Shown here: piece by piece, positions 2,233 to 63,703 of the stretch | Layout of the letters: every line of letters begins with the position of its first letter | Numbering within the stretch: position 1 is the stretch's first letter | Source: Falsirhodobacter algicola | Lineage (GTDB): Bacteria; Pseudomonadota; Alphaproteobacteria; Rhodobacterales; Rhodobacteraceae | Assembly: GCF_018279165.1 (NCBI RefSeq) | Contig: NZ_CP047290.1 | Location: forward strand, 1-64,000 | Length of the DNA: 64,000 bases | Direction of reading: 5' to 3' | The notes under the pieces: model-generated | Told to the model about the DNA's origin: nothing | Database searches by the model: none | The model's input: only the letters and a program-made list of their open reading frames with translations | Made by a program: the position numbers and the translations under genes

Positions 2233-2274
2233 TATAGGTTGTGCGGGATACATTCGTACACCTATGGGTTGTCC
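2233..2274 (+). promoter_or_regulatory. Direct repeats upstream of the RTX-Hint gene
   Basis: Two near-identical 12-base copies (TATAGGTTGTGC and TATGGGTTGTCC, 10/12 identical) start 30 bases apart, about three helical turns, and end 33 bases before the ATG at 2308. The whole 2119-2307 gap is notably AT-rich compared with its surroundings. The repeats could be binding sites for an activator or repressor of the secreted protein. No regulator is identified. Confidence 0.35.
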
Positions 2275-2307
2275 CAGGAAAGCAGCAGCACACCACAGGG
2301 GCAACTT

Positions 2308-4053
2308 ATGAGTGTAACGGTTGAATCCGACGGCGATTTCTACAAGTACAACGGAACTCTCGCGAACCTGCTCGGCCTTTCGGTCCTGCCGAGTCTCAGC
2401 AGCGGAGTCGACGGAACCCTCACCGCCGCGACCGAAGTGCTCAACCCGGGCGATACGGGCACGGTGACCATCGGCAGTGGGGCGGATCAAGCCTTCACCT
2501 ATGTGGGAAGCGGCACAGCGACCGGTCTTACCGATACGACCACCTTCATGGTCTTCACCACTGGCAGCGATATCTATCTGTTCACGTCAGACGCGTTCCC
2601 GACTTTGTCGGCTCTCTTGGTCGCGTTTAACGTCGACGATACTGCGCCCTACAATATTTTCTCGAATGCGGACGGCGTGGTCGACGGCACCAGCGGCGCC
2701 GATACGATCGGCGCGACCTATGTCGACGACGATGGCGACCGGATCAGCATAGGCGATGACACGGTGCTGGGCTATGCCGGCAACGACCTCATCTTCGGCG
2801 CGCAGGGGAACGACCTCCTCTATGGCGGGGATGGCAACGATGGCATCTACGGCAATGCCGGATCGGACACGCTGTTCGGCGGGGCGGGCAATGACACTCT
2901 GGGCGGCGGCAGCGAGGATAGCAGCGCCGACGAACTCTATGGCGGCGCCGGCAACGATACGCTTCTGGCCGATGGCGGCAATGACATCATGGATGGCGGG
3001 GAGGGGACCGACACCTTCGACGCCTCGGTGCTGACCTCGGTCGCGGTGACGGTGGACGAGGACGGCAACGGCACGGTCGTCTCGGATTCGGACACCGATA
3101 CCATCACCTCCATCGAAGGCTTCGTCGCCGGCGAGACGGTGGGCGAGCGCGACTCGATCACGCTGACGAGCACGGTCGACGATCTGTCCCTGATCAGCGG
3201 AATCGACACGGACCTTCAAGACGGGCTGACCTCGGGGACCTACACCCAGAAGGACGGCACGGTCATCGACTTCGGCCCCTCGGCGTCGATCAGCTATGAC
3301 GCACTGATCGCGGGCATTCAGGACGGCACCTATCAGGGCACGGGCACGCTCACCATCACCGGCGGGGACGAAAGCGGCACCGTCGGCAACATCTCCTTCG
3401 CCAATTTCGAAGACATCACCATCTCAGTCACCTGCTTCACGCGCGGGACGCTGATCGACACCCCCGAAGGCCCGCGCGCGGTCGAGGATCTGGCGGTGGG
3501 CGACATGGTCACCACGCTGGACCGGGGCCCGCAGCCGCTGCGCTGGACGGGTTGCAAATCCTTCGGCCTCCTTGATCTGACGCTGCGTCCGAAGCTGCGC
3601 CCGATCCGCATCGCGGCCGGTGCGCTCGGGGCGGGGCTGCCGAAGACGGACCTCGTCGTCTCGCGCCAGCACCGGGTGCTCGTCCGCTCCACCGTGGCGG
3701 AACGGATGTTCGGCTCGCGCGAGGTGCTGGTGCCGGCGGTGAAGCTCTTGGCGCTGGACGGGATCGATCTGGTGGAGGATGCCGCCTCGGTGGAGTACTT
3801 CCACCTCCTCTTCGATCAGCACGAGGTCGTCTTCTCCAACGGGGCGGCGACGGAGAGCCTGTTCACCGGGCCCGAAGCGCTCAAATCCGTATCCCCCGAA
3901 AGCGCCGAGGAGATCCGCGCGATCTTCCCCGAGATCTGCGAGCCGGGTTTCGCGCCCCAGTCCGCGCGTCCGATCCCGGAAAACGGCAAGCGCGCGCGCA
4001 AGCTGGTGGAACGGCACATGAAAAGCGCGCGGGATCTGGTCGAAATCGCCTGA
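2308..4053 (+). CDS. Secreted RTX-repeat protein with C-terminal Hint (Hedgehog/intein) domain
   Basis: 581 residues from the ATG at 2308; an upstream in-frame ATG at 2239 lacks a ribosome site, whereas AGGGGC precedes 2308. Residues about 150-240 hold glycine/aspartate-rich nonapeptides (GNDLLYGGDGND, GGAGNDTL) that bind calcium in type I secreted proteins. From Cys376 (CFTRGTLIDTPEGPRAVEDL) to near residue 540 is a Hint_2 domain including SRQHRVLV; such domains resemble inteins and can self-cleave. No N-terminal signal peptide is seen and no type I exporter lies in the window. RTX-Hint proteins are common in Rhodobacterales; their targets are mostly unknown. The N-terminal third is less GC-rich and unrecognised. 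Confidence 0.85.
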   Translation: MSVTVESDGDFYKYNGTLANLLGLSVLPSLSSGVDGTLTAATEVLNPGDTGTVTIGSGADQAFTYVGSGTATGLTDTTTFMVFTTGSDIYLFTSDAFPTLSALLVAFNVDDTAPYNIFSNADGVVDGTSGADTIGATYVDDDGDRISIGDDTVLGYAGNDLIFGAQGNDLLYGGDGNDGIYGNAGSDTLFGGAGNDTLGGGSEDSSADELYGGAGNDTLLADGGNDIMDGGEGTDTFDASVLTSVAVTVDEDGNGTVVSDSDTDTITSIEGFVAGETVGERDSITLTSTVDDLSLISGIDTDLQDGLTSGTYTQKDGTVIDFGPSASISYDALIAGIQDGTYQGTGTLTITGGDESGTVGNISFANFEDITISVTCFTRGTLIDTPEGPRAVEDLAVGDMVTTLDRGPQPLRWTGCKSFGLLDLTLRPKLRPIRIAAGALGAGLPKTDLVVSRQHRVLVRSTVAERMFGSREVLVPAVKLLALDGIDLVEDAASVEYFHLLFDQHEVVFSNGAATESLFTGPEALKSVSPESAEEIRAIFPEICEPGFAPQSARPIPENGKRARKLVERHMKSARDLVEIA

Positions 4054-9788: not shown

Positions 9789-10543
9789 CCCACCTGCAGA
9801 ACCGAAGACACCAGAAGTTGCGTATAGGCATGCTGCGGATCGTCGAGGACCTGATCCGTCAGGCCGGTTTCGACGACATGGCCGCCCTTCATCACCATCA
9901 GCCGATCCGCCAAGAGGCGCACCACCGCCAGATCATGCGTGACGATCACCGCCGACAGGCCCATCCGCCGTACCAAACCGCGCAGCAAATCCAAAAGCCG
10001 CGCCTGCACCGACACATCCAGCCCGCCCGTCGGCTCGTCCATGAAGACGAGGCGCGGCCCCGTCACGAGGTTGCGCGCGATCTGAAGCCGCTGCTGCATC
10101 CCGCCGGAAAACCCGCCGGGCCGTTCGTCGATGCGGGCGGGGTCGATCTCCACCCGCTCCAGCCACTCCTCGGCGGCGCTGCGGATCGTGCCGTAATGGC
10201 GCGCGCCCACCGCCATCAGACGCTCTCCGACATTGCCGCCGGCGCTGACGGCCATGCGCAGCCCGTCGCGCGGATTCTGATGCACGAAGGCCCAGTCGGT
10301 GCGGCCAAGGCGGCGACGCTCGGCCTCGGTCATGGCCAGCACATCGCGGCCGTCGAACACCACCGTGCCGGCATCGGCAGGTTGCAGCCCCGCAAGGCAG
10401 GACAGAAGCGTGGACTTGCCCGATCCGCTTTCCCCGACGATGCCCATCACCTCGCCCGGATGCAGATCGAAGCTGACGCCGGTGCAGCCGATCCGCGCGC
10501 CATAGCGCTTCTCAAGGCCGCGCACACTCAGCAGCGCGCTCAT
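9785..10543 (-). CDS. phnK: C-P lyase core-associated ATPase PhnK
   Basis: 252-residue ABC-type ATPase, close to oligopeptide-transport ATPases as PhnK usually is: Walker A GESGSGKST, signature FSGGMQQRLQIARN, Walker B LVFMDEPTGGLDVS. In E. coli PhnK docks on the PhnGHIJ core. It overlaps both neighbours by 4 bases, so stoichiometric expression with phnJ and phnL is likely. Confidence 0.93.
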   Translation of the reverse strand: MSALLSVRGLEKRYGARIGCTGVSFDLHPGEVMGIVGESGSGKSTLLSCLAGLQPADAGTVVFDGRDVLAMTEAERRRLGRTDWAFVHQNPRDGLRMAVSAGGNVGERLMAVGARHYGTIRSAAEEWLERVEIDPARIDERPGGFSGGMQQRLQIARNLVTGPRLVFMDEPTGGLDVSVQARLLDLLRGLVRRMGLSAVIVTHDLAVVRLLADRLMVMKGGHVVETGLTDQVLDDPQHAYTQLLVSSVLQVG

Positions 10544-11367
10544 GCCGCGCCCCCGTCCCGGCAGAAGGCCGTGTCCGAACAGACGAACATCCGCCCGCCC
10601 GCATCGTCGATGATGATCTCATCGAGATAGCTCTCGCGCGATCCGCAAAGGGCGCAGGGATGGTCGGCCTTGCTGGGAACGAAGGGGAAATCGTCGAAAT
10701 CGAGGCTCTCGACCCGCGTATGGGGGGGCAGCGCATAGATCCGCTGCTCGCGCCCCGCGCCGAACAGCATCAGTGCCGGGCTGCGGTTCAGCTTGGGATT
10801 GTCGAAGCGCGGGATGGGCGAGGGGTCCATGACGTAATGCCCCTCCACCTTTACCGGATAGGCATAGGCGGTCGCGATCTCGCCATGGCGGGCGATGTCT
10901 TCATAAAGCTTGACCTGCATCAGGCCGTAATCGCTGAGCGCGTGCATGCGGCGGGTCTCCGTCTCGCGGGGTTCGAGAAAGCGCAGCGGTTCGGGGATCG
11001 GGACTTGGAAGACCATGATCTGCCCGTCCCGCAGGGGGGCTTCGGGGATGCGGTGGCGGGTCTGGATCAGGCTCGCCTCCTCGGTGCGTTCGGTCACGGC
11101 GATGCCGGCGGTGCGCTGAAAGAACCGGCGGATCGACACGGCATTGGTCGTGTCGTCGGCGCCCTGATCGATCACCTTCAGCACATCGCCCGGATGCAGG
11201 CAGGCCGCCGTCACCTGCACGCCGCCCGTGCCCCAGCCATAGGGCATCGGCATCTCGCGCGAGGCGAAGGGCACCTGATATCCCGGGATCGCCACTGCCT
11301 TCAGCAGCGCGCGGCGGATCATGCGCTTGGTGTCCTCGTCCAGATAGGCGAAGGTGTAGTCGGTCAT
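10540..11367 (-). CDS. phnJ: Carbon-phosphorus lyase catalytic subunit PhnJ
   Basis: 275 residues. It carries the radical-SAM-like Cys set (CALC, then CSDTAFC; C-x2-C-x21-C-x5-C), whose last Cys (C269) corresponds to E. coli Cys272, and the conserved AIPGYQ segment whose Gly29 aligns with E. coli Gly32 of the proposed radical relay. It uses a 4Fe-4S cluster and SAM to split the C-P bond of ribosyl alkylphosphonate 5-phosphate, releasing alkane and a cyclic ribose phosphate. All catalytic residues are intact. It overlaps phnI by 4 bases. Confidence 0.96.
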   Translation of the reverse strand: MTDYTFAYLDEDTKRMIRRALLKAVAIPGYQVPFASREMPMPYGWGTGGVQVTAACLHPGDVLKVIDQGADDTTNAVSIRRFFQRTAGIAVTERTEEASLIQTRHRIPEAPLRDGQIMVFQVPIPEPLRFLEPRETETRRMHALSDYGLMQVKLYEDIARHGEIATAYAYPVKVEGHYVMDPSPIPRFDNPKLNRSPALMLFGAGREQRIYALPPHTRVESLDFDDFPFVPSKADHPCALCGSRESYLDEIIIDDAGGRMFVCSDTAFCRDGGAA

Positions 11368-12434
11368 GATTGCGCCTCCGCGGCCGCGCGCAGGCGGCGA
11401 ACCAGCTCCAGTTCCGCCTGAAAATCGACGTAATGGGGCAGCTTGATATGTTCGAGGAACCCCGTCGCCTGAATGTTGTCGCAATGGGACAGCACGAATT
11501 CCTCGTCCTGCGCGGGGGCGCCGGTGTCGTCCTCGCCAAGCTCGCGCCAGCGCAGCGCTCGGTCCACCAGCGCCATGGCGATGGCCTTGCGCTCGGTCTG
11601 CCCGAAGGTCAGCCCATAGCCACGGGTGAATTGCGGCGGCTCGGTCCGGCTGCCCTTGAACTGGTTGACCGTGTCGCATTCGGTCAGCTCGATCTCGCCG
11701 ATCTCCACCTCGAGGCCCAGTTCGGGGATCTCCATCGCGACGGGGACGGTGCCGATGCGCAATTCCCCGACGAAGGCGTGGTTGCGGGCATAGCCGCGCT
11801 GCGTCGAATAGGCGAGGCCGAGGAGGAACCCCTCATCCCCCCGGGTCAGCGCCTGAAGGCGCAGCGCCCGGTCCGCGGGCAGTTCCAGCGGCGCGCGCGT
11901 CAGATCGCCGGGCGGATCGCCGCCGGGGGGCGCGCCTTCGATCAGGCCGTCGCGATCCAGGATCGACAGGATGCGCGGGGTCGCGGCCTCTTCGGTCGGG
12001 GTCTGGGGGGCGGGGGGCACCGCGCCTTCGGCCAGAAGCGCGAAATCCAAGAGCCGGTGGGTGTAATCGAAGGTCGGCCCAAGGATCTGCCCGCCCGGCG
12101 CGTCCTTGAACGTGGCCGAGATGCGGCGGCTGATCTGCATCGCGCCCGTGTCCACCGGGGCAGAGGCGCCGAAGCGCGGCAGCGTGGTGCGATAGGCGCG
12201 GATCAGAAAGATCGCCTCGATCAGATCGCCGCGCGCCTGCTTGATCGCCAGCGCGGCCAGATCGGGATCGTGGAGCGAGCCTTCCGACATCACCCGGTCC
12301 ACCGCCAGCGCCATCTGCGCGCGGATCTGCGGAATGGACAGATCGGGGATCGCGGGATCGCCGCGCCGTTCTTCGGCCAGCCACGCATGGGCGTTGTCGA
12401 TCGCCCGCTCCCCCCCTTTGACGGCAACGTACAT
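11364..12434 (-). CDS. phnI: C-P lyase core complex protein PhnI (nucleosidase)
   Basis: 356 residues, full length for PhnI and starting MYVAVKGGERAIDNAH as in the family. PhnI displaces adenine from ATP and, with PhnG, PhnH and PhnL, forms alkylphosphonate ribose 5-triphosphate. Its ATG directly abuts the phnH TAG (TAGATG), the only junction in the unit without an overlap. Confidence 0.94.
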   Translation of the reverse strand: MYVAVKGGERAIDNAHAWLAEERRGDPAIPDLSIPQIRAQMALAVDRVMSEGSLHDPDLAALAIKQARGDLIEAIFLIRAYRTTLPRFGASAPVDTGAMQISRRISATFKDAPGGQILGPTFDYTHRLLDFALLAEGAVPPAPQTPTEEAATPRILSILDRDGLIEGAPPGGDPPGDLTRAPLELPADRALRLQALTRGDEGFLLGLAYSTQRGYARNHAFVGELRIGTVPVAMEIPELGLEVEIGEIELTECDTVNQFKGSRTEPPQFTRGYGLTFGQTERKAIAMALVDRALRWRELGEDDTGAPAQDEEFVLSHCDNIQATGFLEHIKLPHYVDFQAELELVRRLRAAAEAQS

Positions 12435-16430: not shown

Positions 16431-17330
16431 TCAGCCGCCGTTCATGCGGCGCGCATCGATAATGCTTTCGTATTGCTGATGCGTCACGGGGATGAAGTCC
16501 TTGGCATCGCCCGCCGACACGCCATAGGCGCAGGTCGGATCGGTTTCCCACAGATCGGCGGTGATCTGCGTCACCTTGTCCTTCACGTCCTGCGGCAGCG
16601 CACGGCGCATGACCATCGGGCCTTCGGGGATCTCCTTGGACTTCCAGATCTCCACCAGATCGTTCATGTCCACCAGCCCCGCATCCGCCGCCTTGCGCAG
16701 CGCGCCCGAGTTGTAGCCGTCTTCCCAATTGCCCAGCCCGTCGGCCCACGTCACGCCCGCATCGACATCGCCGTTGTTCACGGCCACGATCGTCTGCTCA
16801 TGCCCGCCGACGAAACGCACATCGCTGAAATAGGCGCCCGGCGTCATGTCGATGCCGGCCTGCGTCATTTCCACGTTCGGGATCAGATAGCCGGAGGTGG
16901 AGTTCGGATCGCCAAAGCCCATGACCTTGCCCCGCATATCCTCGATCGAGGTGATGCCGGAATCGCGGCGGGCAAAGCCGATCGAGTGGTAACCGATGGA
17001 ACCGTCGAGGTTCTGCTTGACCAGGAACGGCTCCACAGCCTCGGGGTCGGTCATGTAGACCTTGGCATAGGCCGACGCCCCCAGCCATGCGAGGTCGATC
17101 GTGCCGCCCAGCATCCCTTGGATCACACCGTCGTAATCGGCGGGGGTGAAGACCTTCACCGGCACGCCGAGCGCCTCGGAGATCATGTCCGCATAGCATT
17201 GCTGGTTCGTCATGCGGTCCTGAGCGTTCTCGCCGCCGAGAACGCCGATGTTGAACTGCGTGATCTCCTGCGCGTGGATCGGTGCGGCCAGAAGCGTGGT
17301 CGCAAGCAGGGCGGGCAGTAGGGCTTTCAT
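16431..17330 (-). CDS. phnD: Phosphonate ABC transporter substrate-binding protein PhnD
   Basis: 299 residues with a Sec signal peptide (MKALLPALLATTLLAAPIHAQ, cut near residue 20). The family's ligand loop FGDPNSTSGYLIPN is present, as are the conserved DLAWLGASAYAK and GGHEQTIVAVNNGDVDAG segments. It captures alkylphosphonates in the periplasm for PhnCEE. The start was chosen because the signal peptide begins directly at this ATG. Confidence 0.95.
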   Translation of the reverse strand: MKALLPALLATTLLAAPIHAQEITQFNIGVLGGENAQDRMTNQQCYADMISEALGVPVKVFTPADYDGVIQGMLGGTIDLAWLGASAYAKVYMTDPEAVEPFLVKQNLDGSIGYHSIGFARRDSGITSIEDMRGKVMGFGDPNSTSGYLIPNVEMTQAGIDMTPGAYFSDVRFVGGHEQTIVAVNNGDVDAGVTWADGLGNWEDGYNSGALRKAADAGLVDMNDLVEIWKSKEIPEGPMVMRRALPQDVKDKVTQITADLWETDPTCAYGVSAGDAKDFIPVTHQQYESIIDARRMNGG

Positions 17331-17382
17331 CCGTCGTCTCCATGAAATCGCGCGGCACCCGCCGCGGCAGGGGAAAAGGGGG

Positions 17383-18213
17383 TCAGTCGGCCAGAAGCGA
17401 GGCGGCATAGGCCTCGTCCTTCGGCGCATCCTCGGGCACGTCCATCGCGGTGGAGGTGGCCTGTTCGCGGAAGGCGGCCCCGGCGCCGTAGATCTCGCGC
17501 GCGGCGGCAAGGGTCAGTTGGGCAGGCACGCCGTCGAACACGATGCGCCCGTCCCGCATCCCGATCACCCGGTCGCAGTAGCGCCGAGCGGTATCGAGCG
17601 TGTGCAGGTTGGCGATGACGGTGCGCCCGTCCTCTTGCTGGATGCGGCGCAGGGCATCCATGACGACCTGCGCGTTCATCGGATCGAGGCTGGCGATCGG
17701 CTCGTCGGCAAGGATCACGCGCGGGTCCTGCATCAGGGCGCGGGCGATGGCGACGCGCTGCTGCTGGCCGCCCGACAGGGCCTCGGCCCGCTTGCCCGCC
17801 TGTTCGGCGATGCCCAGCCGGTCGAGGATCTCGATCGCGCGCCGGATGTCGGCCTTCGGCCACATGTTGAACAGCGTCGGCAAGGTGCCGCGCCGGTTTA
17901 GCAGCCCGTGCAGCACGTTGGACACGACATCCATCCGCGGCACCAGATTGAACTGCTGGAAGATCATCGCGCACTGGCTTTGCCATGCGCGTTTGTCACC
18001 GCCCTTCAGGGCCAGCACATCGGTGCCGTCGAACACGATCCGCCCCGAACTGGCATCGGTCAGCCGGTTCATCATGCGCAGAAAGGTGGATTTCCCCGCG
18101 CCCGAGCGGCCGATGATGCCGATCATCGCCGGCTCCCCGACCGAGAAGCTGGCTGCATCCACCGCGCGGGTCTGGCCGAAGATCTTGGTGACGTTCTCGA
18201 CGTGAAGCAGCAT
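17383..18213 (-). CDS. phnC: Phosphonate ABC transporter ATP-binding protein PhnC
   Basis: 276 residues: Walker [10 protein letters not shown], the insertion and Q-loop typical of PhnC ([21 protein letters not shown]), signature [14 protein letters not shown] and Walker [13 protein letters not shown]. It energises uptake by PhnD-PhnE-PhnE. It is first in the unit phnC-phnD-phnE-phnE, 52 bases ahead of phnD. A tandem PhoB-like site lies about 40 bases upstream. Confidence 0.95.
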
Positions 18214-57072: not shown

Positions 57073-57080
57073 CTGTGGAT

Positions 57081-57111
57081 CCTTGTCATGGCGATCCGAT
57101 CCATGGCAAGG
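57081..57111 (-). promoter_or_regulatory. 5' UTR hairpin covering the receptor ribosome site
   Basis: Arms CCTTGCCATGG and CCATGACAAGG (minus strand, 10 of 11 paired) enclose a 9-base loop. The downstream arm contains the AAGG of the AAGGA ribosome site, 8 bases before the receptor ATG. Folding would hide the ribosome site, so translational control is possible. Confidence 0.5.
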
Positions 57112-57143
57112 CGCGCACGCAGCTGTGATCGGCTTTCCGAGTG

Positions 57144-57172
57144 AAATAGTCGTGAATTGCGCCGGGGTTCAA
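57144..57172 (-). promoter_or_regulatory. Candidate promoter of the siderophore receptor operon
   Basis: Minus-strand TTGAAC (57172-57167) and CTATTT (57149-57144) are spaced by exactly 17 bases. A TGAA-N11-TTCA dyad overlaps the -35 box, a possible repressor site. The predicted RNA would begin about 60-65 bases before the ATG and include the hairpin. Confidence 0.45.
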
Positions 57173-57260
57173 GCGCTTTTCGGAGGCGATCCGCAGACCG
57201 TTGCGGAACCGCCGCACCCCCGCGCGCGTTGGGGGCGGAATACGTCAGGATCAGGACCTC

Positions 57261-58331
57261 ATGGCCGCAGCCCATCTGAACAGGATCAGCACGGCCGTTC
57301 CCGATCACGACGTCCATTCCGTCTTCATGGGATTTGCCGAACGGGTGCTGCGGCAGGACGGCAAGCACGCGCTGTTCCGGCGCATGGCCGCGCGGGCGCA
57401 GATCGAACATCGCTGGTCCTGCCTGACGCCCGCCGGCGATGGCCAAGGCGCCGCCCTCGACCGCGAGGGGTTCTACACCGCCGGCCGCTTTCCCCCCACC
57501 GCCAGCCGGATGCGCCGCTTCGAGGCCGCCGCCCCCCGCCTTGCCGAACGCGCCGTGGCGGGGCTGAACCTCGAGGCGCCGGAGGGGATCACCCATCTCG
57601 TGACGATCTCCTGCACGGGGCTGTTCGCGCCGGGGATCGATTTCCATCTGATGCGCCGCTTCGGGCTGCCGGGCAGCGTGGCGCGCACCTCGGTCGGGTT
57701 CATGGGCTGCTATGCCGCGATCAACGGGCTGCGGCTGGCCCAACAGATCGTGAACGCCGATCCGGCGGCGCGGGTGCTGCTGGTCAGCCTCGAACTCTGC
57801 ACGCTGCATCTGCAGGACACGCATGATCTGGAACAGGTGCTGTCCTTCATGATCTTCGGCGACGGATGCGCCGCCGCCCTCGTCACCGCCGACGCCGAGG
57901 GGCTGGCCCTCGACGGCTTCACCTCCATCCTCGTGCCGCAGACCGAGGGGCACATCACATGGGGGATCGGCGATCAGGGCTTCGACATGGTGCTGTCGGG
58001 GCAGGTGCCGGGCAGCATCGGGCAGTTCCTCGGCCAGAACCGCGGGCAGGTGATGCCCGAGGATGCGGCGCGGGAAACGACGCTCTGGGCCGTGCATCCG
58101 GGCGGGCGGTCGGTGCTGGACGCGGTGCAGCAGGCCTTCGATCTGCCGCCCGAGGCCCTTGCCCATTCGCGCGAGGTGCTGCGCGCCTTCGGCAACATGT
58201 CCTCGGCGACGGTGCTCTTCGTGCTGGCGGCGATGATGCGCGATCCGGCCACCCGCGCCGGACAGACCGGCTGCGCCATGGCCTTCGGCCCCGGCATCGT
58301 GGCCGAAACGATGCGCTTCTCCGTCGCATGA
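57261..58331 (+). CDS. Type III polyketide synthase (chalcone synthase family)
   Basis: 356 residues with the complete catalytic triad: C118 (VTISCTGLFAPGIDFHL), H279 (LWAVHPGGRSVLDAV) and N312 (RAFGNMSSATVLFVL). Such homodimeric enzymes extend an acyl starter with malonyl units and cyclise it to pyrones, resorcinols or phloroglucinols. GGA lies 8-10 bases before the ATG. The next two genes, a methyltransferase (4-base overlap) and a flavoprotein (17-base overlap), form a tailoring cassette. Starter unit and product are unknown. Confidence 0.94.
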   Translation: MAAAHLNRISTAVPDHDVHSVFMGFAERVLRQDGKHALFRRMAARAQIEHRWSCLTPAGDGQGAALDREGFYTAGRFPPTASRMRRFEAAAPRLAERAVAGLNLEAPEGITHLVTISCTGLFAPGIDFHLMRRFGLPGSVARTSVGFMGCYAAINGLRLAQQIVNADPAARVLLVSLELCTLHLQDTHDLEQVLSFMIFGDGCAAALVTADAEGLALDGFTSILVPQTEGHITWGIGDQGFDMVLSGQVPGSIGQFLGQNRGQVMPEDAARETTLWAVHPGGRSVLDAVQQAFDLPPEALAHSREVLRAFGNMSSATVLFVLAAMMRDPATRAGQTGCAMAFGPGIVAETMRFSVA

Positions 58332-59062
58332 CCGCGCGGCCCGATTTCTCGCGCCGCTCGGACCGGGCCGAACTGATGGACGGGCCCTGCGATTACGCCA
58401 CCTTCCGCGGCTGCCTCGTCGATCTGGCGCGGGTGAACCGCCTGACGCTGGCCTATCGCCCGACGCTGGCCTTCTTCGAACGCCTGCGCCGCGAAGGGCG
58501 CCTGCCGCAGGGCCGCCCCTTGCGGGTGCTGGATGTCGGATCGGGCTATGGCGACATGCTGCGCAAGGTCGCGGATTGGGCGCGCGGGCATGGGGTGCCG
58601 GTGGCGCTGACGGGGATCGACCTCAACCCCTTCGCCGCCCGCGCCGCCGCCGAGGCCGCGCACTCGGATCCCCCCATCACATGGCGCACGGGCGACGCCC
58701 TCGACCTGCCCGAGAGCGAGCCGGTGGATGTCGTCCTGACGGCCCTCGTGGCCCATCACCTGCCCGACGCGGCGCTGATCCGGTTCCTCGCATGGCAGGA
58801 CCGCACCGCCCGGATCGGTTGGTTCGTGAACGATCTGCACCGCCACCCGCTGCCCTATCACGCCTTCGGGGCGGGGGCGCGGATGCTGCGGATGCACCCC
58901 TTCGTGCAGCATGACGGCCCCGTCTCCATCGCGCGGGGCTTCGTGCGCAGGGATTGGCAGCGCCTTCTGGCAGAGGCCGGGGTGACGGGCGCCGAGGTCG
59001 AAGGATGGGTGCCCTTCCGCCTTTGCGTCGCGCAGGTTCGGGGCGATGACGCAAGGCTGTGA
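58328..59062 (+). CDS. SAM-dependent methyltransferase of the type III PKS cassette
   Basis: 244 residues of the class I fold. Motif I is VLDVGSGYGD (residues ~67-76), the acidic end of strand 2 is TGIDLNPFA, and VVLTALVAHHLPD forms motif III. The N-terminus (ELMDGPCDYATFRGCLVDLARVNRLTLAYRPTL) matches methyltransferases associated with type III PKS genes. It probably O- or C-methylates the polyketide. ATGA overlap with the synthase gene supports co-translation. Confidence 0.88.
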   Translation: MTARPDFSRRSDRAELMDGPCDYATFRGCLVDLARVNRLTLAYRPTLAFFERLRREGRLPQGRPLRVLDVGSGYGDMLRKVADWARGHGVPVALTGIDLNPFAARAAAEAAHSDPPITWRTGDALDLPESEPVDVVLTALVAHHLPDAALIRFLAWQDRTARIGWFVNDLHRHPLPYHAFGAGARMLRMHPFVQHDGPVSIARGFVRRDWQRLLAEAGVTGAEVEGWVPFRLCVAQVRGDDARL

Positions 59063-60140
59063 CATCGTGGTGGTGGGGGGCGGCCCGGCCGGGGCGCATG
59101 CCGCCACCCGCCTTGCCGCCGCCGGGCGCGAGGTGGTGGTGCTGGAACGCAGCACCGGCCCGCATCAGAAGATCTGCGGCGAATTCCTCAGCCATGAGGC
59201 GATCTTCTATCTGAACCGCCTCGGCATCGACCCGGCGGCGATGGGGGCGGTGCCGATCCGCAGCGTCGCGCTGCTGCGCCGCGGGGCGCAGATCGCAGCC
59301 CCCCTGCCCTTCGCCGCCGCCAGCCTGTCGCGCCTGCGTCTGGACGAGGCGCTGCTGACCGCCGCCGCCGCCGCCGGGGCCAAGGTCCGGCGCGGCTGCC
59401 GCGTGCGCGCCGTCCGCCGCGCGGGCGCGGGCTGGCAGGTCGATGACGGCGGCGCGGGCCTTGCGGCGCGCCATCTGCTTCTGGCCACCGGCAAGCACGA
59501 TCTGCGCGGCTGGCGCCGCCCGCCCGGCACCCAGCCCGACCTGATCGGCTTCAAACAGCGGTTCGGCGGCGGCCCCGTCACCGACCGGGTGGAGCTGTGC
59601 CTCTTCGACGGCGGCTATTGCGGGATCGAACCGGTGGAGGATGGCGCGATCAACGTCTCGCTCCTGATCCGGCAGGGGCATTGGGCGCGGCTCGGATCGT
59701 GGGGGGCGCTGTGGGATCATCTGCTGACTTCCAACCCCGCCCTCGCCCGGCGGATGGAGGGGGCGGTGCCGCTTCTGCCGCGCCCCTTGTCCATCGCCGC
59801 GATCCCCTATGGCCATGTGCGCCGGCGCAGCGCGGGGGCGTGGCATCTGGGCGATCAGGCCGCCGTCATCCCCTCCTTTGCCGGGGACGGGATCGCGATG
59901 GCGCTGCACAGCGGCGCATTGGCCGCGCGCCATCTGATCGGGGGCGACGGCCCCGACCGGTTCCAGCGCGCCTTCGCCGCCGATGTGGGCGGGCCGGTGG
60001 CGCGGGCCACGCTGATCTCGCGGATGCTGGCGCGGCCCGCGGCGCAGGGGCCGCTGGCGGGGCTGGCCCGGCGCTGGCCGGGGCTGATGACGCGGATCGC
60101 CGCCAGCACCCGGATTCCCGCCGATCGGCTTGTCGTATGA
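59046..60140 (+). CDS. FAD-dependent oxidoreductase of the type III PKS cassette
   Basis: 364 residues, geranylgeranyl-reductase/aromatic-hydroxylase-like. The FAD motif GGGPAG is at residues ~11-16, KICGEFLS is the family's substrate-side segment, and LGDQAAVIPSFAGDGIAMALHSG is the second FAD motif. It may hydroxylate or oxidise the methylated phenol to a quinone, as SrsC does in Streptomyces, or reduce a double bond. It overlaps the methyltransferase gene by 17 bases, and the photoreceptor gene follows after 48. Confidence 0.85.
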   Translation: MTQGCDIVVVGGGPAGAHAATRLAAAGREVVVLERSTGPHQKICGEFLSHEAIFYLNRLGIDPAAMGAVPIRSVALLRRGAQIAAPLPFAAASLSRLRLDEALLTAAAAAGAKVRRGCRVRAVRRAGAGWQVDDGGAGLAARHLLLATGKHDLRGWRRPPGTQPDLIGFKQRFGGGPVTDRVELCLFDGGYCGIEPVEDGAINVSLLIRQGHWARLGSWGALWDHLLTSNPALARRMEGAVPLLPRPLSIAAIPYGHVRRRSAGAWHLGDQAAVIPSFAGDGIAMALHSGALAARHLIGGDGPDRFQRAFAADVGGPVARATLISRMLARPAAQGPLAGLARRWPGLMTRIAASTRIPADRLVV

Positions 60141-60188: not shown

Positions 60189-62336
60189 ATGGATGACCCG
60201 CAGCACAGCGCCCTTTCCGCAGGGGCGCCGGACCCCGATCTTCTGACGGCCTGCGACCGCGAACCGATCCATGTGCCCGGGGCCATTCAGCCCCATGGGC
60301 ATATGATCGTCGCGGATGAACGCACGCTGCGCGTCGTCGGCCGTGCCGGGCTTCCCCATCCCCGGCTCGATGCCGCGATCGGCCAGCCCCTCGCCACCGT
60401 CCTCGGCCCCGACCTCTGCGCCCGCCTGCAGGATCAGGAGGATCGCCTCGCGGTTCCCGGCGCGCTGCATCTGGACGGATCGTCCTGGGACGTGTCGGCC
60501 TTCCGTTCGGGCGACCGGCTGGTGATCGAACTCCTGCCGCAATCGCAGCAGGTGGTGCTGGATGCCGGTTTTCTGGCCCGGCTGGATCAATACGGCACGG
60601 CGCTGGAACGCGCGGCGTCCTTCGCCGAACTCTTCCACAAGGCCGCGGAGGCGTTCCGCCAGATGACCGGCTTCGACCGCGTCATGGTCTACCGCTTCGT
60701 GGAGGAGGATGCCGGCGTCGTCGTGGGCGAAAGCCTTGCGCCCGGCATGCCCGGCTTCATGAACCACCACTTCCCCGCCGGGGACATCCCGCGTCAGGCC
60801 CGCGCGCTCTATGTGCGCAACCGGGTGCGCGTGATCGCCGACATCGGCTACACCCCCCAGCCCCTGCGCGGAGAGGAGGACCTTTCGGGCCTCGATCTGA
60901 CCGATTCCGCGCTGCGCAGCGTCTCGCCCGTGCACATCCGCTATCTGCACAACATGCAGGTGGGGGCCTCGGCCTCCATCTCCATCGTGAAGGACGGGCT
61001 GCTCTGGGGGCTGATCGCCTGCCATCACCGGGTGCCGCGCGATCTGCCGCTGGCGACGCGGCTGGCCTGCCGCGCGCTTTCCACCGCGCTCGCCCGTCAG
61101 GTCCGCGCGCGCGAGGATGCCGACCTTTACCGCGCACGCATCCGCCTGCGCACCCAAGAGGATGCGATCCTCAGCCAGCTCGGCTCCGACCGCACCCTCG
61201 GCGCCTTCTTCGCCGAGGCCGGGCCGAAGATCGCCGCGCTTCTGAACGCCGACGGTTTCGCCGCCGTGCAGGGCGGCGATCTGTTCGCGACCGGCCATTG
61301 CCCCGACGCGATCGACATCCGCGCCTTGGCCGATCATGTGCGCCTGCCCGCCGCCATGCGCACCTTCGCCACGAACCAGCTGGAACGCGACTATCCCGCC
61401 GCCGCCGAGTTCCGCGCCACCGGCAGCGGCCTCGTCGCCGTCACCATGTCCACCGAGGTGCCGACCATCCTGATGTGGTTCCGGGCCGAGCATCTGCAGA
61501 CCGTCATCTGGGCCGGCAACCCGCACAAGGACATTCCCGCCGACCCCGAGGCGCAACTCAACCCCCGCACCTCCTTCGCCGAATGGAGCGAGCAGGTCAG
61601 CGGCCGCGCCCGCCCCTGGAGCCATGCCGAAGAAGAGGCCGCCGGCCGCATCGTCCGCCTGATGCTGGAGGCGCGCAACAACCGCCGCGTGCGCGAACTC
61701 AACCACGAGATCGCGACCACGCTGAAGGAGAACGAAAGCCTCCTGCGCCAGAAGGACTTCCTTCTGCGCGAGGTGAACCACCGCGTGCAGAACAGCCTGT
61801 CGCTGGTCGCGGCCTTCCTGCGCATGCAATCGCGCGAGGCCCCCGAAGAGGTGCGCACCCACCTCGCCGCCGCCGAAAGCCGCCTGAAGGCCGTCAGCCT
61901 CGTGCATCGGCGCCTGCATCAGAACGACAGCGGAGAGATCCTCGACCTCGCCCGCTACCTCGAGGATCTGTGCGACGATCTGCGCGAGACGCTGGGCCGG
62001 GGCTGGGGCGACATGCTCGACATCAGTCCGACGCCGATCCTGATCGCGACCGACCGCGCCATCAATGTGGGCCTGATCGTGAACGAGCTGGTGACCAACG
62101 CCACCAAATACGCCTATGGCGACGGCGTCGGCCCCATCGGCATCGTGCTGGAGCAGTATCGCGACAGCTTCCGCCTGATCGTCGCCGATAACGGCGTCGG
62201 GCGCGACGGCGCGGTGCGCGGCACGGGCTTCGGCTCGCGGATGCTGGGCGCGCTGGTCGAGAGGCTGAACGGCCATCTCGACATGGAGGACAACCAGCCC
62301 GGCACCCGCGCCATCCTGACCGCCCCCATCCGCTAG
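60189..62336 (+). CDS. bphP: Bacteriophytochrome histidine kinase
   Basis: 715 residues. The biliverdin-binding Cys is C22 in LLTACDREPIHVPGAIQPHG; a PAS domain follows (to ~125), then GAF with the D199-I-P motif (FPAGDIPRQARALYVRNRVR) and PHY (to ~500). The output is a HisKA_2-type kinase with H531 (LLREVNHRVQNSLSLVAAFL) and N-box IVNELVTNATKYAY. It senses red/far-red light and autophosphorylates. No heme oxygenase or response regulator gene is adjacent. It follows the polyketide cassette on the same strand, 48 bases after its last stop. Confidence 0.95.
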   Translation: MDDPQHSALSAGAPDPDLLTACDREPIHVPGAIQPHGHMIVADERTLRVVGRAGLPHPRLDAAIGQPLATVLGPDLCARLQDQEDRLAVPGALHLDGSSWDVSAFRSGDRLVIELLPQSQQVVLDAGFLARLDQYGTALERAASFAELFHKAAEAFRQMTGFDRVMVYRFVEEDAGVVVGESLAPGMPGFMNHHFPAGDIPRQARALYVRNRVRVIADIGYTPQPLRGEEDLSGLDLTDSALRSVSPVHIRYLHNMQVGASASISIVKDGLLWGLIACHHRVPRDLPLATRLACRALSTALARQVRAREDADLYRARIRLRTQEDAILSQLGSDRTLGAFFAEAGPKIAALLNADGFAAVQGGDLFATGHCPDAIDIRALADHVRLPAAMRTFATNQLERDYPAAAEFRATGSGLVAVTMSTEVPTILMWFRAEHLQTVIWAGNPHKDIPADPEAQLNPRTSFAEWSEQVSGRARPWSHAEEEAAGRIVRLMLEARNNRRVRELNHEIATTLKENESLLRQKDFLLREVNHRVQNSLSLVAAFLRMQSREAPEEVRTHLAAAESRLKAVSLVHRRLHQNDSGEILDLARYLEDLCDDLRETLGRGWGDMLDISPTPILIATDRAINVGLIVNELVTNATKYAYGDGVGPIGIVLEQYRDSFRLIVADNGVGRDGAVRGTGFGSRMLGALVERLNGHLDMEDNQPGTRAILTAPIR

Positions 62337-62440
62337 GCCCGCCTGCGACATAATTCGTGCTTTCCCAAAGGCCCACCGGCATGGCATGCCGGATGCCACC
62401 CGTGATTGTGCACGGGATCGCCGCCGGAAGGGAACCGACC

Positions 62441-63703
62441 GTGACCACAAGCCCCGCCACCTCCGCCTTCGGCCCGACGGCCGGACGGGTCGTGATCCTG
62501 TGCTGGATCGCCATCATCCTCGACGGGTTCGACCTTGTCGTGCTGGGCGCGGTGATCCCGACGCTCACCGGCGGGGCGATGCCCTTCATGACCGGGACCG
62601 AGGCGACCTTCATCGCCACCATCGGCCTTGTCGGCATGCTGTTCGGCGCGCTCGGCATCGGCGCTGCGACCGACCGGATCGGCCGCCGCCGCGCGCTGAT
62701 CGGCGCGGTGGGCGCGTTTTCGGTGCTGGCGGCGCTGTGCGGCCTTGCGCAGACCCCGGCGCAGCTTGCCACCTTCCGCTTCCTTGCCGGGGTGGGTCTG
62801 GGCGGCTGCCTTCCCATCGCCATCGCCATGGCCTCGGAATTCTCGCAGGGGCAGGCCGGGCGCGCGGCGACGCGCGTGATGACGGGCTATCACATCGGGG
62901 CGGTGGCGACGGCGCTGCTCGGTCTCGTGCTGCTGCCGCTGACGGGCTGGCGCGGGATGTTTCTGGCCGGGGCGCTGCCGGGCCTTGCGCTGGTGCCGCT
63001 GATGCTGCGCCATCTGCCCGAAAGCCCGGCCTTCCTTCTGGCCCAAGGCCGCCGCGCCGAAGCCGAGGCCATCGCCCGCAGCCAAGGCATCACCCTGACC
63101 GAGCCGGAGACCGGGCCGAAACCGTCCATGCGCACGCTGATCGCGCCGGGCTTCCTGCGCACGACGCTGGCGATCTGGCTGACCTCGTTCATGGGGCTGC
63201 TGCTCGTCTATGGGCTGAACAGCTGGCTGCCCGCGCTGATGGTCGCGGCCGATTACGGGCTGGAACGGGGGCTGTGGCTGCTCCTGCTGCTGAATGCCGG
63301 GGCGATCTGCGGGCTGTTGGTCGCCGGTCAGGTCGGCGACCGGATCGGCCTGCGCCGCGCCACGATCCTGTGGTTCGCGGCGGGGGCGGTGCTGCTGGCG
63401 CTGCTGTCGTGGAAGATGCCGGTCGCGCTGCTCTATCCGGTGGTGTTCCTGACGGGGGCGCTCGTCTTCTCGGCGCAGGTGCTGGTCTATGCCTTCACGG
63501 CGCAGCGTTATCCGGCGGCGATCCGCGCCACCGCCATCGGCATGGCGGCGGGCGTCGGACGGCTGGGCGCGATCGCGGGGCCGCTGATCGGCGGCACGCT
63601 GGTGGCGATGGGCATCGGGCACCCGTGGGGCTTTTACGCCTTCGCGGTGGTCGGCTTCCTCGGCGCGCTGGCCATGTGCCTGACGACCTCGCCGCGGCGC
63701 TGA
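62441..63703 (+). CDS. MFS transporter, aromatic acid:H+ symporter type
   Basis: 420 residues from a GTG at 62441 with GGAAGGGA upstream; an ATG at 62357 would add 28 polar residues unlike the family. Motif A is present (GAATDRIGRRRALIGA), as is the AAHS feature DGFDLVVLGAVIPTL with a charged Asp in the first segment, and a second motif-A copy GQVGDRIGLRRATI. It probably imports an aromatic or small organic acid. The 3' end overlaps the convergent xdhC by 70 bases. Confidence 0.85.
   Translation: MTTSPATSAFGPTAGRVVILCWIAIILDGFDLVVLGAVIPTLTGGAMPFMTGTEATFIATIGLVGMLFGALGIGAATDRIGRRRALIGAVGAFSVLAALCGLAQTPAQLATFRFLAGVGLGGCLPIAIAMASEFSQGQAGRAATRVMTGYHIGAVATALLGLVLLPLTGWRGMFLAGALPGLALVPLMLRHLPESPAFLLAQGRRAEAEAIARSQGITLTEPETGPKPSMRTLIAPGFLRTTLAIWLTSFMGLLLVYGLNSWLPALMVAADYGLERGLWLLLLLNAGAICGLLVAGQVGDRIGLRRATILWFAAGAVLLALLSWKMPVALLYPVVFLTGALVFSAQVLVYAFTAQRYPAAIRATAIGMAAGVGRLGAIAGPLIGGTLVAMGIGHPWGFYAFAVVGFLGALAMCLTTSPRR

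Follow-up and report, generated by a model that had tools for sequence, protein, structure and literature searches.

Positions 57,261 to 60,140 of the first 64,000 nucleotides of contig NZ_CP047290.1 of Falsirhodobacter algicola (this whole stretch is called the window) carry three overlapping genes for a type III polyketide synthase (PKS), a class I methyltransferase (MT) and a flavin adenine dinucleotide (FAD)-dependent oxidoreductase. What does this cassette make, and to which family of pathways does it belong? A preliminary description of the DNA had likened the trio to srsABC of Streptomyces and had called it the most likely undescribed pathway of the window. The cassette type proved to be already known, and the trio is an ordinary, well-formed representative of it; srsABC is the right comparison in logic, but not the closest kin. 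As to the product, we favour with moderate confidence a lipid-modifying pathway, in which an acyl starter and malonyl-CoA would give an alkylresorcinol that is then methylated and oxidised.

An intact three-gene cassette

The three genes are arranged as follows.

57261..58331, + strand: type III PKS gene (ATG at 57261, 356 amino acids; assigned by Pfam, a PDB phmmer search, pocket alignment and tree)
58328..59062, + strand: class I S-adenosylmethionine-dependent MT gene (244 amino acids; Pfam Methyltransf_25 and family alignments)
59046..60140, + strand: FAD-dependent oxidoreductase gene (364 amino acids; Pfam, NCBIfam, PDB profile search and motif counts)

The PKS and MT genes overlap by 4 nt (ATGA), the MT and FAD genes by 17 nt, and none of the three contains an internal stop or a frameshift. 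The PKS matched the Pfam families Chal_sti_synt_N (2.6e-20, 73.3 bits) and Chal_sti_synt_C (2.5e-23, 83.2 bits; cut-offs 27). Its residues C150 (57708-57710), H279 (58095-58097) and N312 (58194-58196) align with the catalytic triad C175/H313/N346 of PKS18, and the Cys-His-Asn triad is complete in all 80 named relatives as well as in the window. With both domains and the triad in place, the protein is a chalcone synthase-like type III PKS, and the genome of 2.78 Mb gave no second match to this enzyme class. The MT matched Methyltransf_25 (9.4e-12) and, below the cut-off of that model, the NCBIfam hypothetical-protein model PRK06202 (1.8e-41). Its residues G73, G75, D98, H143-H144, D196 and S200 are invariant among 37 aligned homologues. 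The preliminary description of three overlapping genes with a catalytically complete synthase was thus accurate, coordinates included.

All three genes are under purifying selection. Compared with the nearest listed relative, an alphaproteobacterial metagenome-assembled genome (L020, PKS 74% identical), the ratio of nonsynonymous to synonymous substitution rates (dN/dS) was 0.21 for the PKS, 0.25 for the MT and 0.27 for the FAD gene, at dS values of 0.9-1.2 that are near saturation. Because the nearest listed relative is only 74% identical and these ratios are low, the cassette is more than a chance assembly. Against the copy on a Paracoccus liaowanqingii plasmid (L101, PKS 67.9% identical), dN/dS was 0.31 for the MT and 0.40 for the FAD gene; the L101 PKS was left out because the record breaks up its frame and annotates it from an internal start. 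In that record (L101:1571-2640) the PKS frame lies in two parts, only the second of which is annotated; either the copy is broken or the sequence contains an error.

Distribution and kinship of the trio

The trio is a property of an alphaproteobacterial and acidobacterial clade and is not peculiar to this genome. A locus scan by PKS similarity was kept to the best 80 loci (48 Pseudomonadota and 32 Acidobacteriota), and all three genes lay within 5 kb in 69 of these. They were contiguous in the order PKS-MT-FAD in 41 loci, and in 21 loci, 20 of them acidobacterial, this order was kept but an insert separated MT from FAD. The remaining seven were classed as differing in order or strand; in L028 an overlap of the PKS and MT genes was the sole cause. 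PKS and MT alone were present in seven further loci and the PKS by itself in four; some incomplete loci end near contig ends (L025, L038, L045), and the MT and FAD genes of L096 are in broken pieces. At distances above 5 kb from the PKS, the best 80 loci showed no full-length MT or FAD homologue. The insert, present in 20 of the 32 Acidobacteriota loci, is possibly an extra step or an exporter; part of it in L029 (9869-10510) is a DUF2306 membrane protein, from a cluster with members in 21 loci.

As the best 80 loci had been picked by PKS similarity, separate genome samples were checked. Among their matches at E ≤ 1e-40, the window's own excluded, 19 of 20 had both an MT and an FAD match no more than 1.5 kb away, and L154 had neither. 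Beside eight weaker type III PKS loci, which are those of the 21 weaker rows having loci, no MT was found (0/8), and three showed short, weak FAD matches. Thirteen of 385 genomes in the class sample matched at E ≤ 1e-40, own included; inside the phylum and outside the class, G957 carries a PKS of 52% identity with MT and FAD genes adjoining.

Of the 295 genomes sampled in the family, 19 had a type III PKS at E ≤ 1e-10, and three of them this clade's enzyme: the window's own, G047 (51%) and G229 (50%). The PKSs of the remaining 16 are 26-35% identical and placed elsewhere on the tree, and no MT or FAD homologues were found within 1.5 kb on either side of them. These 16 make up a second type III PKS lineage of the family (L004-L019; 16/295 genomes), nearer to PKS11. 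Within the genus, the cassette was present in one of seven species, the window's own. The best plasmid-borne relative, in Paracoccus, bears out the earlier impression of a Rhodobacter-like genome.

PKS-MT-FAD neighbourhoods were also seen in Deinococcus (L105), Microbacterium (L104), Paludisphaera (L103), Psychrobacter (L106) and Paenibacillus (L113). In three of them (L104, L105, L113) the FAD protein matched only in part, and L104 has its PKS and MT divided between frames. On the Deinococcus radiodurans plasmid, UDP-glucosyltransferase-like and phospholipase D-like genes follow the trio (L105:7653-8909), and the product there may be glycosylated.

A tree of 122 PKS rows was computed by a quick method with SH-aLRT support only and no bootstrap; it contained five reference enzymes, and HidC, ArsB, ArsC, RpsA, FtpA, SrsA and PKS10 were not among the rows. 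The window PKS groups with L020 and L101 (SH-aLRT 100) inside an 86-row alphaproteobacterial/acidobacterial clade (SH-aLRT 100), into which none of the five reference enzymes falls. PKS11 joins the actinobacterial L111 and L114 (SH-aLRT 99) and PKS18 with the actinobacterial L107 and L109, both outside the window's clade. The Paludisphaera PKS (L103) is separate from it, and its join is not settled by the tree. Because several rows have long branches, the exact joins are unsure.

A Streptomyces cluster of PKS11 type (L111) served as stand-in for srsABC of S. griseus, an alkylquinone operon, and for pkqABC of Mycobacterium smegmatis, in which a PKS, a methyltransferase and an oxidoreductase lead to polyketide quinones (PMC9927152). 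The order of synthase, methyltransferase and flavoprotein in srsABC/pkqABC is also that of the window, and L111 has the same Trp at the cyclisation position. However, the middle gene of L111 belongs to the ICMT family (4e-28), whereas the window's MT is of class I and shows no similarity to the L111 protein (best E 2.8). The FAD protein of L111 is 29% identical to the window's and keeps the DG motif (ADG), which the window lacks, and the window PKS falls outside the PKS11 clade in a tree without SrsA and PKS10. SrsB itself is of the ICMT family. With L111 as stand-in, membership in srsABC was rejected on three counts: the unlike (ICMT) methyltransferase, the place of the PKS in the tree and the lack of a DG motif. 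What remains is an analogy: the general logic of synthase, methylation and ring oxidation stood, but close kinship was not supported.

The cassette is homologous to a planctomycete operon. Paludisphaera L103, our proxy for the planctomycete operons and for HidABC, has homologues of all three window proteins side by side, a class I MT included (PKS 37.8%, MT 32% and FAD 26% identical), in the order MT-FAD-PKS instead of PKS-MT-FAD. Synthases of planctomycete MT-oxidoreductase-PKS operons produced 5-pentadecyl- and heptadecylresorcinols, and co-expression of the Gimesia maris MT and FAD enzymes added one methyl group, probably on carbon (PMC10896814). The same gene arrangement leads to hierridin B in cyanobacteria (hidABC; PMC8086630, PMC10896814). 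All type III PKS clusters described from Acetobacteraceae consist of PKS, MT and FAD monooxygenase, with a metabolite given as not known (PMC8776678). These clusters are from genera other than the window's; that of Roseomonas haemaphysalidis (L102, PKS 61.8%) lies in the window's clade. ArsC is about 29% identical to the Acetobacteraceae enzymes (PMC8776678). It is a long-chain type III PKS, as are ArsB of Azotobacter and RpsA of Rhodospirillum centenum; RpsA is the one characterised enzyme of such long-chain chemistry met in an alphaproteobacterium, the class of the window's host.

Predicted product and flavoenzyme

In the proposed pathway, fatty-acid metabolism would supply a long-chain fatty acyl thioester, which the PKS would extend three times with malonyl-CoA to a tetraketide and close by aldol condensation to a 5-alkylresorcinol (or resorcylic acid). 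The MT would methylate a ring carbon or a phenol oxygen, and the FAD enzyme would oxidise the ring, yielding a methylated alkyl-hydroquinone or quinone retained by the membrane. The long-chain starter, the closure to a resorcinol over a pyrone, the order and site of methylation, the hydroxylation by the FAD enzyme and the membrane role are inferred.

The best PDB phmmer match of the PKS was PKS18 (5.6e-44), the alkylpyrone synthase of M. tuberculosis, which accepts medium to long acyl-CoAs (PMC6274091) and shares with it the triad and several pocket residues. T144, A148 and C205 of PKS18 are identical in the alignment; positions 144 and 148 line the tunnel. The cyclisation position is Leu in PKS18 but Trp in the window, and PKS18 is not known to have an MT or FAD partner. 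The Trp, W234 (57960-57962), shares its column with L266 of PKS18 and W230 of PKS11. Trp occupies this column in every one of the 80 relatives, as it does in L103, L104, L105, L106 and L113, which also bear the trio; elsewhere it is Leu (PKS18 and CylI), Tyr (THNS) or Gly (stilbene synthase). The Trp that ArsB requires for resorcinols is at the same position and is conserved in FtpA, SrsA, PKS10 and PKS11 (PMC5916927), and reciprocal exchanges have been made there (ArsB W281G, ArsC G284W; PMC6274091). W234 thus points weakly to alkylresorcinol closure.

Several observations weigh against the alkylresorcinol pathway. Pocket positions 143, 208, 209, 221 and 348 are C, H, L, F and S in the window versus S, N, A, H and L in PKS18, and the long-chain starter is therefore not proven. 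Trp also stands in all 16 rows (L004-L019) of the second PKS lineage and therefore does not single out the window's clade. CylI, with Leu, was grouped with the alkylresorcinol synthases (PMC8086630), and PKS11, with Trp, goes under the name of alpha-pyrone synthase in the PDB, although it is listed as resorcinol-forming elsewhere (PMC5916927); because of these two enzymes the Trp rule is suggestive rather than diagnostic. Hydroxylation by the FAD enzyme is uncertain, since the DG motif is missing and the closest solved profiles are halogenases. The planctomycete work reports no oxidised product (PMC10896814). Finally, no product of any clade member was found in searches of an open-access library, with subscription papers mostly outside it. 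To that extent the pathway may still be called undescribed, but the arrangement is widespread and published (PMC8776678, PMC10896814, PMC8086630).

The main rival is that the PKS makes long-chain alkyl-alpha-pyrones like PKS18 and ArsC, with the MT acting on the 4-hydroxyl or a ring carbon and the FAD enzyme oxidising the chain or ring; we regard this as a real, if tentative, possibility. PKS18, the closest solved structure by sequence, forms pyrones (PMC6274091), and the PDB name of PKS11 suggests that the same Trp may accompany a pyrone. Against a pyrone stand the Trp of all 80 relatives in place of the Leu of PKS18, a weak argument, and the alkylresorcinols from the MT-FAD-PKS operons of planctomycetes (PMC10896814).

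A short, branched or aromatic starter would instead lead to a small soluble phenol, chromone or pyrone, serving as a signal or antibiotic and not as a membrane lipid. The starter pocket resembles that of PKS18 only in part, major facilitator superfamily (MFS) or DHA2 transporter genes adjoin the relatives L112 and L063, and an MFS gene lies two genes downstream in the window. However, the orthologues of the latter are located elsewhere in the genus, and the planctomycete synthase products imply C16-C18 starters (PMC10896814). We consider such a product unlikely.

The FAD protein matched DAO (5.8e-12) and FAD_binding_3 (1.6e-9) in Pfam, and its best NCBIfam match was the geranylgeranyl-reductase superfamily (1.4e-29, under its cut-off). 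By these matches and those below it is assigned to the geranylgeranyl-reductase/halogenase/monooxygenase superfamily. Classical NAD(P)H-dependent aromatic hydroxylases of the PHBH type are defined by GxGxxG, DG and GD motifs. GGGPAG, KICGEFLS and GD are present in the window, but ATGKHDL replaces the DG motif, so that the protein does not have the motif set of the PHBH type. ADG was found in none of 30 listed sequence types, which cover 74 of 78 aligned FAD rows; it is present in the FAD proteins of the Streptomyces row L111 and of Deinococcus L105.

A family-profile search of the PDB placed the FADH2-dependent halogenases ChlB4 (9.3e-31) and CmlS (3.8e-29) on top, with geranylgeranyl reductases lower (3oz2, 7.5e-20), and a halogenated alkyl phenol or pyrone would be compatible with either ring type. 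Flavin-dependent halogenases carry a WxWxIP motif. The window region aligned with it reads GGYCGIEPVEDG, which lacks the motif, and no W was found in this region in 25 listed types covering 45 of the 78 FAD rows. With the matches to 3oz2 and to the geranylgeranyl-reductase superfamily also speaking otherwise, a halogenase, raised by the profile matches and set aside on the WxWxIP-aligned region, is very improbable.

MT and FAD subtypes, called by BLAST score to the window versus to L066, agree in 74 of the 75 clusters that have both (49 AA, 25 BB, 1 BA), as if the two were one unit. The paired switching of types amounts to 2-3 independent pairs, too few for testing.

Genomic setting and origin

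The cassette is flanked by the following features.

57073..57260, no strand: intergenic gap of 188 nt between a divergent TonB-receptor gene and the PKS gene (from open reading frame positions)
60189..62336, + strand: bacteriophytochrome (PAS_2-GAF-PHY) with HisKA_2/HWE kinase (Pfam), 48 nt past the FAD gene
62357..63703, + strand: MFS transporter like aromatic acid/H+ symporters (NCBIfam TIGR00895), 20 nt past the phytochrome gene

Upstream, a TonB-dependent siderophore receptor and a FecCD-type uptake block run in the opposite direction, and the cassette promoter likely sits in the 188-nt gap. The promoter scan found no sigma-70 consensus or promoter-like site and the Rfam scan gave no match. 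The terminator scan gave one terminator-like site where 1.8 were expected; it lies within the phytochrome gene, on the opposite strand. The MFS transporter scored 274 bits against TIGR00895, under the cut-off of 418.55.

The phytochrome gene probably lies outside the cassette, although it may be co-transcribed with it in this strain. Around the PKS in loci L001-L099 (L002-L019 reach 1.5 kb, and several contigs are short), the search for a phytochrome gave one weak match, in L030, which is a CheB-CheR-PAS histidine kinase. Phytochrome orthologues of 62-74% identity occur in three species of the genus (L140-L142) in other surroundings, and the gene was rejected as a pathway member on these two grounds. 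No heme oxygenase (PF01126) that could supply the phytochrome with bilin was found in the genome; three of 14 control genomes gave a match. A second phytochrome-like match of 35% lies at G000:C1:381380-383239. It is a rather doubtful suggestion that the clade forms a distinct pathway family, making a methylated alkyl quinone or phenolic lipid with a flavoenzyme devoid of the usual NAD(P)H-binding DG motif and with two MT-FAD versions passed on in pairs, and perhaps switched by light here; such switching may act via the downstream phytochrome kinase gene.

Orthologues of the MFS gene in the genus (L143, L144, L146) are located elsewhere. In one cassette-free congener (L145) the TonB-receptor/FecCD block is syntenic, with the phytochrome and MFS orthologues elsewhere. 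As the synteny is limited to that block, no clean empty site was found, only genome-specific junctions. These strain-specific junctions and the presence in one of seven species of the genus suggest that the cassette was gained by transfer. The G+C content at third codon positions is 0.88-0.90 in the cassette genes and 0.88 and 0.91 in the two downstream neighbours; being near that of the neighbours, it gives no sign of recent transfer. The cassette of L020 is preceded, at a distance of about 0.5 kb, by a transposase-like gene (756-1766; HTH_38, with rve just under the cut-off), which fits mobility. That the trio is a decaying relic of such a transfer, functionless in this strain, is the least probable reading, since the narrow occurrence in the genus, the neighbours unlike those of relatives and the broken PKS frame of the Paracoccus plasmid are met by intact frames and catalytic residues and by dN/dS of 0.21-0.27 against L020 in all three genes.

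Elsewhere in the window, a Hint-domain protein with RTX calcium-binding repeats is encoded at 2239-4053. PhnJ of C-P lyase (10540-11679) and a phosphonate-binding protein (16431-17510) mark a phosphonate utilisation region.

In other bacteria, the lipids made by type III PKSs change sensitivity to antibiotics, transport electrons or form cyst coats (PMC10896814, PMC6274091). The cassette is recurrent in Alphaproteobacteria and Acidobacteriota; beyond these, one record each of Planctomycetota, Deinococcota, Actinomycetota and Bacillota has a PKS-MT-FAD neighbourhood, the FAD proteins being only partly homologous in the last three.

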